In this document: piece after piece, positions 3,858 through 27,736 of the stretch | Layout: every line of letters starts with the position of its first letter | How positions within the stretch are numbered: position 1 is the stretch's first letter | Assembly (NCBI GenBank): GCA_009711295.1 | Contig: WLST01000007.1 | Coordinates: 1-47,700, forward strand | From: Actinomycetota bacterium | GTDB lineage: Bacteria > Actinomycetota > Acidimicrobiia > Acidimicrobiales > Ilumatobacteraceae | Direction of reading: 5' to 3' | DNA length: 47,700 nucleotides | Program-made: the position numbers and the translations under genes | Notes under the pieces: generated by a model | Seen by the model: the letters and a program-made list of their open reading frames with translations, nothing else | Database searches by the model: none | Told to the model about the DNA's origin: nothing

Positions 3858-5780
3858 ATGAGCACCCCTATTTGGCGAGTATCTGATGAGAAAAAATCAG
3901 GCCTTGCGCTCACCCAATTTTTTGCACAATATGGTCTCTCTTCTTTTGAAGATGCGATGGAATGGAGTTTGCGCGAACCAAACGAGTTCTGGCGAGCTGT
4001 GTGGAACACCACTGGAATTGTTGGCGTGCCAGGCGAACCTGCCGTTCGTTTCCCCTCCGAGAGCATTGTAGAAACTGAATTTTTCCCTCATGCCCTGCTC
4101 AATATTGTGGATACCTTTCTGCAACCACGCGACAATGCCACTGCTGACGCGATTGTTTACGTTTCAGAAACAGGCGAACGACACTCCATCACATGGAGTC
4201 AATTGCACACTGATGTCAATAGGGCAACTCATGCACTTCACCAATACGGGGTACAAGCAGGCGACCGCGTGGCCGCCTGGATGCCAAACAGGCCAGAAAC
4301 CATCGTTCTGTACCTTGCGACTCAAGCACTTGGTGCCATCTTCACCTCAACGTCATCAGACTTTGGAGTGCAGGGAGTTATAGACCGATTCAGTCAAACC
4401 ACACCTCGTGTTTTACTTGCCGCAGATGAGTACTCATATGGAGGAAAAAGCTTTTCCTGCAGAGACAGGTTGCAAGAAATTATCGAAGCTTTGCCCTCTC
4501 TTGAACATGTTATTTATGTCGAGACATCAAGCTCGCAAGAAAAACCTTTGCCGCTGACAAAAAGTTGGAACGAGTTTCTTGCATCGGGAAGCGAAGTTCC
4601 TTTTGAGCGGCCACGCTTCCCTTTCAATCATCCTGGTCTCATTTTGTACTCGTCAGGAACAACTGGGATGCCAAAGTGCATAGTGCATAAGGCCGCGGGC
4701 GTTCTTCTCACACACCTCAAAGAGCAGCAACTGCATTGTGATGTGCACCCCGGTGACACTGTTTTTTATTTCACCACATGCGGGTGGATGATGTGGAACT
4801 GGTTAACTTCTGCGCTTGCATCGGGTGCCACCATTGTGCTCTTCGACGGCAACCCCGCGTATCCCAATTTGAATACGTTATTTGACCTCTGCGAACGAGA
4901 AGACATCACGCTTCTTGGCACGTCGGCAAAATTTATCGACTCGTGTCGCAAAGCTGAACTTTCTCCCAGTAGTACGCACCGTTTCCCGGCCCTACGCACT
5001 ATCTGTTCCACTGGGTCTCCGCTCAACGCTGCAGGTTTTGAATGGGTATATGAATATTTTGCTCCGCAAGCACACCTTGCATCTATTTCAGGTGGCACAG
5101 ACCTCTGCGGATGTTTTGTAGGTGGCGACCCCACTCGCCCCGTTTATGCTGGTGAAATTCAAGGCGCCATGTTGGGAATGGATGTTTCCGTCTTCAACGA
5201 CATCGGCGAAGAACTCCTCACCGGCACAGGCGAGCTTGTTTGCCGCAATGCATTCCCCTCAATGCCCAATGGATTTTGGGGAGATACAACAGGTGAGAAA
5301 TATCACAACACGTACTTTTCTCGCTTCGAAAACACTTGGACACATGGCGACTTCGCATCACGTACTACACACGATGGCTTTGTCATTCATGGACGTTCTG
5401 ATGCCACGTTGAATGTTGGTGGAGTGCGCATGGGAACTGCCGAAATATATTCGCAAGTTGAGACGTTTGCAGAAATTATTGAGTCGGTTGCAGTTGCGCA
5501 AGAGTGGGACGACGACACGCGCATCGTTCTTTTTCTTCGCATGGCCAATAACACACAGTGCACACCAGAGCTAGAACAAGCTCTGCGCCTGCGTTTACGT
5601 CAGTTCATTTCGCCACGCCATGTGCCGGCACTCATCATTCCTGTTTCCGACATTCCCCGCACTCGCTCAGGAAAGATCAGCGAGTTGGCAGTGACCGACA
5701 TTGTCAATGGCCGCCCAGTGCGTAACACTGAGGCGCTAGCCAACCCAGAATGCCTCAAAGAATTTACAATTCCCACCTGA
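3858..5780 (+). CDS. Acetoacetyl-CoA synthetase (AMP-dependent)
   Basis: 640 aa; ANL motifs YSSGTTGMPKCIVHKAAGVLL, TTCGWMMWN, ASISGGTD, A10 lysine PRTRSGKISELAV. Length and N-terminal SFEDAMEWSLREPNEFWRAVWNTTGI are typical of acetoacetyl-CoA synthetases. Confidence 0.85.
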   Translation: MSTPIWRVSDEKKSGLALTQFFAQYGLSSFEDAMEWSLREPNEFWRAVWNTTGIVGVPGEPAVRFPSESIVETEFFPHALLNIVDTFLQPRDNATADAIVYVSETGERHSITWSQLHTDVNRATHALHQYGVQAGDRVAAWMPNRPETIVLYLATQALGAIFTSTSSDFGVQGVIDRFSQTTPRVLLAADEYSYGGKSFSCRDRLQEIIEALPSLEHVIYVETSSSQEKPLPLTKSWNEFLASGSEVPFERPRFPFNHPGLILYSSGTTGMPKCIVHKAAGVLLTHLKEQQLHCDVHPGDTVFYFTTCGWMMWNWLTSALASGATIVLFDGNPAYPNLNTLFDLCEREDITLLGTSAKFIDSCRKAELSPSSTHRFPALRTICSTGSPLNAAGFEWVYEYFAPQAHLASISGGTDLCGCFVGGDPTRPVYAGEIQGAMLGMDVSVFNDIGEELLTGTGELVCRNAFPSMPNGFWGDTTGEKYHNTYFSRFENTWTHGDFASRTTHDGFVIHGRSDATLNVGGVRMGTAEIYSQVETFAEIIESVAVAQEWDDDTRIVLFLRMANNTQCTPELEQALRLRLRQFISPRHVPALIIPVSDIPRTRSGKISELAVTDIVNGRPVRNTEALANPECLKEFTIPT

Positions 5781-26133: not shown

Positions 26134-26532
26134 ATGAATACCGTTCGCTACCTCAGCCTCGATTGGATTGAAGCAATCGGCACACGCGCCACGAAAAACG
26201 CCGAACTCCAATTACTTGGTTCCACTCTCAACATAGGCATTACCCAAATGGTGAGCGACGGCCCAGAAGATACTGTCTTGTATCACCTGCAAGTGAAAGA
26301 CAACGCCGTGACGTTTGGTGCCGGACCAGCCGACCCAGAACATGTTCGTCTTGAACAAGAATGGGAAACTGCCGTAGCAGTAGCTACTGGTGCAATGGCT
26401 GCAGAAGATGCATTTATCACTGGGGCGATACGCATCGGTGGCGATGCGCAAATGCTTCTACAAAGTCAAGAAATTTTTGCTGCTCTCGACCCCATCTTCG
26501 ACGAAGTCGCAAAAATTACCGTTTATAAATAA
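26134..26532 (+). CDS. SCP2 sterol-binding-like protein
   Basis: 132 aa; LGITQMV...VLYHLQVKDNAVTFGAGPADPEHVRLEQEWETAVAVATGAMAAEDAFITGAIRIGGDAQML layout of SCP2 proteins. Confidence 0.7.
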   Translation: MNTVRYLSLDWIEAIGTRATKNAELQLLGSTLNIGITQMVSDGPEDTVLYHLQVKDNAVTFGAGPADPEHVRLEQEWETAVAVATGAMAAEDAFITGAIRIGGDAQMLLQSQEIFAALDPIFDEVAKITVYK

Positions 26533-26957
26533 TTGCCCGACTTCAACGCAAGATACGTTGCCTCGGCATTATTGTCTTCCACTTGAACAGCGTCATCTGC
26601 GAGTGGGTTCACCCACACGGCCACGATAAGCGCTAGTTCATGTAAATCATTTGCACCAAAGACACCACTGTCGCGTGCTTTTTGCACACCCCTCGCTACA
26701 CCATGTTGAGCAGCTCCCCAGGTGAGATCTCCATGGCGTTCGGTGTCAATGGTTGCCTTGTTCACAAATAGCGTCATTGGTTGCAGTGGTTGGTTTGGCG
26801 CAGCGACCGCCACAAAACGGGTATGCCCGACGCTGGGGGTTGCTAGACCCGTTGCCCATGCAGTTCCCACTGCACCTTCTCGGTCGCCAAGCACTGTGTT
26901 GATGTGTGCGGCGTTGGCTCCTTCACCGACAAATGCTTCGCCATATTCTGGTTTCAT
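26523..26957 (-). CDS. Formaldehyde-activating enzyme (Fae)-like protein
   Basis: 144 aa; GEAFVGEGANAAHINTVLGDREGAVGTAWATGLATPSVGHTRFVAVAAPNQPLQPMTLFVNKATI...WGAAQHGVARGVQKA...NNAEATYLALKSG matches the Fae pattern, including the AHI catalytic His. Confidence 0.85.
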   Translation of the reverse strand: MKPEYGEAFVGEGANAAHINTVLGDREGAVGTAWATGLATPSVGHTRFVAVAAPNQPLQPMTLFVNKATIDTERHGDLTWGAAQHGVARGVQKARDSGVFGANDLHELALIVAVWVNPLADDAVQVEDNNAEATYLALKSGNYL

Positions 26958-27736
26958 TGAGGCAACCTTCCGTATCGCGCAAGCTTCAATTCATCTGATG
27001 AATCGGTTCCGCTCTGTGTGTCGTATGCCAACAGTGCAACGATGCGTACAGTGTTTCCCATAATTGGGGTCACCTTATGCAGTGATGTCCGGCCGTTAAA
27101 TATCATGAGCGTTCCGGCATGCATTGGCTCTACACGAACACAATGAGATGCATCGCCCGACAACACACTTTGCACACCTTCATAGTTCTCATCGGTCGCC
27201 GTGCGAAGTTTTTGTGCGTTTTCAAACTCGCCACCTGCTTGCGAAGGCTGTAATGCAAGTGACACGACGAAGTCGGTCATATCGAAATGCCAACCCAACT
27301 GATCGCCTGCGCGCATCACTGCAAGATTCAATGCACCAAAAGGGTCTGCATACCGGTAAAGCTTTTCTTGCCCCAGTACGCCGGCAACAAAAGTCATGAG
27401 TTCATCAGACTCATAGAGTTCACGCACTGCATGATGTGCGGGGATGTGGTCGTAGGCAATGACTTCCACTGCAGATGACTGCACCGTACGGCGGGGATGC
27501 CCCACAGGAAAAGAGTCGTCTGGTCTACTTAAATATGCGGTTTTGTGAGACTCAGAGCGGTGTGCCAACGCAACAAGCTCTTCTGTTTCTGTCACCATGC
27601 GCATCACTACTTCACGCGAAATGAACTCTGGCAACACCACAACCCCATCGCGTTGAAAAATATCTCGTAGGCGCGTAGTGGTCTGAAAATCAGAAAGCGG
27701 CCACTCGTTGGTATTGACGAGGGCCGCTACTGACAT
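26954..27736 (-). CDS. 2-oxoglutarate/Fe(II)-dependent oxygenase-like protein
   Basis: Facial triad HFD (GWHFDMTDF) ... SLHKVTP, Arg in NTVRIVALLAYD; the stop overlaps the Fae-like start (ATGA). Confidence 0.78.
   Translation of the reverse strand: MSVAALVNTNEWPLSDFQTTTRLRDIFQRDGVVVLPEFISREVVMRMVTETEELVALAHRSESHKTAYLSRPDDSFPVGHPRRTVQSSAVEVIAYDHIPAHHAVRELYESDELMTFVAGVLGQEKLYRYADPFGALNLAVMRAGDQLGWHFDMTDFVVSLALQPSQAGGEFENAQKLRTATDENYEGVQSVLSGDASHCVRVEPMHAGTLMIFNGRTSLHKVTPIMGNTVRIVALLAYDTQSGTDSSDELKLARYGRLPQ

Follow-up and report, generated by a model that had tools for sequence, protein, structure and literature searches.

The canonical formaldehyde-activating enzyme (Fae, EC 4.2.1.147) of M. 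extorquens, with the structures PDB 1Y5Y and 1Y60, shares its Pfam family and conserved histidine, lysine and glutamine residues with the protein described here as FAE. FAE differs from it by an asparagine in place of an aspartate, by its separate branch, by its occurrence in genomes without markers of the tetrahydromethanopterin (H4MPT) pathway, and by a 2-oxoglutarate (2OG) oxygenase as partner. Fae2 and Fae3 of methylotrophs are likewise divergent Fae homologues, but their hosts possess the H4MPT pathway. Gfa of Paracoccus, which is glutathione-dependent, differs in its thiol carrier and represents a protein family other than Fae. Similar to the role proposed here for FAE, it speeds the condensation of formaldehyde with a carrier that is not H4MPT (PMC8879981). 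Members of the Fae family act on formaldehyde, and the condensation of formaldehyde with tetrahydrofolate is described as spontaneous (reviewed in PMC8879981). Single deletion of fae2 or fae3 in Methyloversatilis caused no growth phenotype on C1 compounds (PMC5023235), and a fae2 deletion in Methylobacterium aquaticum led to slower growth (PMC7356819). The oxygenase partner, termed OXY, resembles the BesD/HalD superfamily (BesD, HalA, HalB, HalD and the BesD-like lysine hydroxylase) in its PF23169 match and its nearest solved fold. It is only 16-20% identical to these enzymes, carries Asp in the iron triad and hence is no halogenase, scores far under the BesD equivalog cut-off and is accompanied by Fae.

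A preliminary description of the locus had stated that no system with this pairing was known, and our literature search likewise found no description of it. The search found neither a paper joining Fae with Ilumatobacter nor one joining Fae with a 2-oxoglutarate dioxygenase in an operon. The pair is thus a genuine module, and the searched literature contains no account of it; because most papers in subscription journals lie outside this literature, this is weak evidence of novelty. The window, i.e. the whole analysed stretch of 47,700 nucleotides, carries the following features of the pair:

27736-26954, minus strand: OXY, Fe(II)/2OG oxygenase of the BesD/HalD superfamily, 260 aa (PF23169, E 8.7e-17; AlphaFold2 model and fold matches)
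26957-26523, minus strand: FAE, Fae-family protein of the AHIN side clade, 144 aa (PF08714, E 2.9e-41; TIGR03126, 123.4 bits)
26954-26957, minus strand: ATGA overlap of the OXY stop TGA (26956-26954) and the FAE start ATG (26957-26955), read from the sequence
27281-27289, minus strand: OXY codons H150-F151-D152, iron-binding (H150 and D152 invariant in 38 sequences)
27077-27079, minus strand: OXY codon H220, distal iron ligand (invariant in 38 sequences)
27044-27046, minus strand: OXY codon R231, presumed 2OG-binding Arg (invariant in 38 sequences)
26904-26906, minus strand: FAE codon H18, at the position of the presumed catalytic His in canonical Fae (aligned with 1Y5Y and related sequences)
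26898-26900, minus strand: FAE codon N20, Asp in the three canonical Fae sequences compared (alignment)

Both reading frames and the stop/start overlap were found in the window as the preliminary description had given them, and profile matches confirmed the two families. OXY passes the cut-off of 26 for the HalD profile PF23169 with 61.7 bits. Its AlphaFold2 model has a mean pLDDT of 96.2, and the nearest solved folds to this model are a BesD-homologous lysine hydroxylase, BesD, HalA, HalB and HalD. All top PDB matches of the predicted structure fall into this group with TM scores of about 0.6-0.7. Solved members of this fold bind free amino acids. Residues H150 and D152 of the HxD motif, H220 and R231 are invariant among 38 sequences, some of them only about 30% identical, and OXY thus has an iron site of the hydroxylase type. 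R231 is taken to be the 2OG-binding arginine from knowledge of family and fold. With the HxD...H site and this presumed arginine intact, OXY retains the iron site and 2OG ligand expected of a 2OG-dependent demethylase. The earlier preference for a hydroxylase over a halogenase is borne out by the invariant aspartate ligand, whose retention rules out an Fe/2OG halogenase. A lysine chlorinase of the BesD type was rejected as well, since OXY reaches 25.6 bits against an equivalog cut-off of 450. As a separate observation, the OXY genes of two loci, L068 (G081) and L034 (G049), each contain one in-frame TAG, which may reflect a pseudogene or a sequencing error.

FAE passes the cut-offs of PF08714 (141.6 bits, cut-off 27) and of the NCBI Fae equivalog-domain model TIGR03126 (cut-off 118.05), and it matches 1Y5Y with E 4.8e-25 as a member of the same Pfam family across most of its length. 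Aligned with 1Y5Y and relatives, it retains the His (H18), Lys and Gln conserved in Fae; the catalytic role of the histidine is assumed from general knowledge of Fae. The canonical motif AHID reads AHIN in FAE, with Asn for Asp two residues past the His. In the tree, for which the program issued a long-branch caution, three canonical Fae sequences form a group of their own (support 100/99) and FAE stands outside it in a side clade (80/80). The Fae gene of one locus, L050 (G080), 4986-5324, has an internal in-frame gap of 31 residues, either a real deletion or an assembly error.

Conserved adjacency had been set beforehand as a test of the pairing, and it was observed in the family of the source genome. 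Among 224 genomes of this family, 65 carry Fae, and in 58 of the 65 OXY lies immediately upstream on the same strand. Conversely, Fae is present in 58 of 59 genomes with a strong OXY match, a set picked by hand from first-rank matches above about 230 bits plus the truncated copy of G071; the remaining OXY copy stops at a contig end. The match in G071 is itself cut at a contig end (182 bits) and was added because it adjoins Fae; leaving it out changes the counts to 57 of 64 and 57 of 58. OXY matches of lower score (E about 1e-31 to 1e-62), which were kept as a separate group, are present in many other family members, most of which have no Fae. The overlap measures exactly four bases in 23 of 34 scored pairs. 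The pair is kept in the genera g1, g6, g8 and g22 although its flanks differ. The gene mdh, which the preliminary description had placed directly upstream and joined to the module, is a malate dehydrogenase gene judging from its sequence. It does lie directly upstream in g1 and g22, but in g6 it is separated from the pair by a divergent deoD; in g8 neither of these genes was seen beside the pair, nor does mdh adjoin it in other phyla; its membership in the module was therefore dropped. A comparison of the neighbours of OXY loci revealed no third gene conserved with the pair across genera, and a further partner was rejected for this reason.

A scan of species genomes yielded 80 OXY loci, and Fae follows directly in nearly all of those from Actinomycetota. 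The same direct pair, with other flanks, is found in records whose titles read Proteobacteria PRO3, Myxococcota Prado149 and Parvibaculum; the phylum assignments rest on such titles, which can be wrong for metagenome bins, several of these being labelled Bifidobacterium breve. In the Rhodospirillales genome HOG25, OXY and an AHIN-type Fae share one operon without being adjacent; this operon also encodes a Dpp-type importer, an alcohol dehydrogenase and a kinase. When the search was widened to the order of HOG25, no further oxygenase reached the cut-off used. OXY relatives without Fae exist too, and in the oxygenase tree the pairing is scattered among deep branches and requires five changes or more, which means that it is either old with subsequent losses or has moved as a unit. 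The protein distances of OXY and Fae correlate (r 0.46, 24 pairs, 0 of 2000 shuffles as high), as expected under co-inheritance. The pairing is not due to chance.

A different arrangement is present in four genomes of the genus g10 (L043-L046), in which Fae adjoins deoD and has no OXY beside it. These four Fae proteins lack the catalytic His and the Lys of the FVNKA motif. They form one lineage in the tree (100/100), so the loss of active-site residues was a single event. One of the four genomes, like other g10 genomes, has only a distant OXY match elsewhere. The pattern may indicate that FAE depends on OXY, with which it is compatible without proving it; in G209 (genus g25), Fae likewise adjoins deoD with no OXY beside it, and its residues are intact.

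The preliminary description had named H4MPT as the acceptor of formaldehyde, and this part is not supported. None of the family's 65 genomes with Fae, and none of 25 other genomes with OXY, yielded Mch, an enzyme of the H4MPT pathway. A search of 40 Fae genomes for FTR was negative in 39. Many of the genomes behind these counts are incomplete, but 18 of the 40 reach 90% completeness or more, with contamination no higher than 5%. The exception, HOG25, holds a separate canonical Fae near FTR. Together with the separate branch of FAE and AHIN in place of AHID, the lack of Mch and near lack of FTR make H4MPT a very unlikely acceptor. FAE does exceed the NCBI Fae equivalog-domain cut-off, as expected for an enzyme condensing OXY-derived formaldehyde with H4MPT, but against the marker counts and its position outside the canonical group we regard such a reaction as highly improbable. 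By elimination only, tetrahydrofolate appears to be the likeliest carrier. A mycothiol-dependent formaldehyde dehydrogenase passed its curated cut-off in 2 of 15 genomes; its absence elsewhere is weak evidence and was kept out of the argument. In HOG25 (L189, L213; G629 contig C398), the canonical Fae and FTR are accompanied by an apparent gene for a PQQ-type dehydrogenase, and Mch was not found in the 4.2 Mb of this genome.

The occurrence of the pair in distant bacteria apparently without the cofactor of known Fae points to an undescribed handling of formaldehyde or a similar small aldehyde. As a tentative preference, held well below even confidence, we propose that a small N-methylated compound is demethylated oxidatively and that the formaldehyde goes to a carrier different from H4MPT, most likely tetrahydrofolate. 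The conserved two-gene operon would supply the Fe(II)/2OG oxygenase OXY and an FAE of the non-methanopterin Fae branch. OXY would consume O2 and 2-oxoglutarate to hydroxylate an N-methyl group (less likely an O-methyl group) of a small amino-acid-like or betaine-like compound. Breakdown of the carbinolamine would then release the demethylated product and formaldehyde, and FAE would speed its condensation with the carrier, giving methylene-H4F in the case of tetrahydrofolate. The demethylation, the formaldehyde release, the acceptor and a direct hand-over from OXY to FAE are our inference. The mechanism put forward originally is half right at most. It seems nearly as likely, though still doubtful, that OXY attacks a carbon atom in an amino-acid-like substrate, yielding a hydroxylated product and no free formaldehyde, and that FAE processes this product, for instance by cleaving a hemiaminal or by handling a larger aldehyde such as a semialdehyde. 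In favour of this, the closest solved relatives of OXY hydroxylate or halogenate carbons of lysine and ornithine; against it, formaldehyde is the substrate of the characterised Fae enzymes, and FAE retains their catalytic His as well as the conserved Lys and Gln. Genes adjoining AHIN-clade Fae in Burkholderiaceae, Ensifer and Streptomyces encode aldehyde dehydrogenases (SSADH-type) and reductases (aldo/keto or hydroxyacid-type), so a larger aldehyde would be allowed; against this, no aldehyde dehydrogenase was found constantly beside the pair across genera. In the Burkholderiaceae (L198, L201, L202, L203), AHIN-clade Fae belongs to a recurring cassette that also encodes an aldo/keto reductase, an SSADH-type dehydrogenase and an MFS transporter. 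Furthermore, three OXY relatives without Fae (L124, L145, L146) are followed by a lyase of the aspartase/fumarase superfamily, and those of L145 and L146 stay below the curated aspartase cut-offs. The dehydrogenase cassettes of Burkholderiaceae and Ensifer and the aspartase-like lyase beside OXY speak against demethylation.

Demethylation is made plausible by betaine-linked neighbours, a hint taken from roughly ten neighbourhoods without a background rate and stemming from distant homologues (about 30-43% identity) or from Fae relatives without OXY. In Bdellovibrionaceae, an OXY with 44% identity and no Fae has its gene overlapping that of a betaine-type importer. The homologue of Mesorhizobium (33%) is flanked by MttB-like and Ldh-family genes and by a GbcA-like Rieske oxygenase, and one from Alisedimentitalea (30-35%) precedes a Dpp-type importer and an MttB-like gene. 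About 8 kb downstream of a Pseudomonas homologue (36-43% to two alphaproteobacterial queries), a betaine importer is encoded. The AHIN Fae of S. clavuligerus, which has no OXY, shares an overlap with an OpuAC-type betaine-binding gene, and a dehydrogenase pair follows it. No hint of this type was seen in other neighbourhoods, e.g. those on many Pantoea plasmids with a DUF2817 gene. The more specific proposal, that the AHIN clade activates formaldehyde with tetrahydrofolate or a carrier new to Fae and serves in freshwater Actinomycetota as dedicated acceptor for a new 2OG demethylase family acting on betaine-type compounds, is improbable as a whole. Less probable still is a non-enzymatic FAE that binds formaldehyde or a pterin as a sensor or as a shield of the oxygenase. 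The unaffected Methyloversatilis deletion strains (PMC5023235) and the persistence of g10 Fae without its catalytic His agree with such a role, but the catalytic residues are kept wherever OXY is adjacent and were lost in the one lineage whose otherwise intact Fae gene has no OXY beside it. That the two genes are neighbours by inertia, with no joint function, is hardly credible. The 58 cases within the family are not independent, because relatives share ancestry; nevertheless, the pair persists across phyla while its flanks change, HOG25 keeps both genes in one operon without adjacency, and active-site residues of Fae disappeared where OXY is missing.

Automatic annotation labels this clade "formaldehyde-activating enzyme" and thereby implies H4MPT-linked metabolism where no H4MPT markers show. 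If FAE uses tetrahydrofolate, a condensation regarded as spontaneous in the literature (PMC8879981) would gain an enzyme, and if OXY is a demethylase, lake Actinomycetota would possess an additional route of C1 release. The coupled pair makes both questions, the carrier of FAE and demethylation by OXY, directly testable.

With its 144 aa (window 26523-26957, minus strand), FAE of this genus is shorter than the proteins of about 161-186 aa in other genera and has no C-terminal tail. A weak SCP2-like gene (window 26134-26532, plus strand) runs towards FAE, and the ends of the two genes share 10 bases; this neighbour is also kept in g1 and g22.
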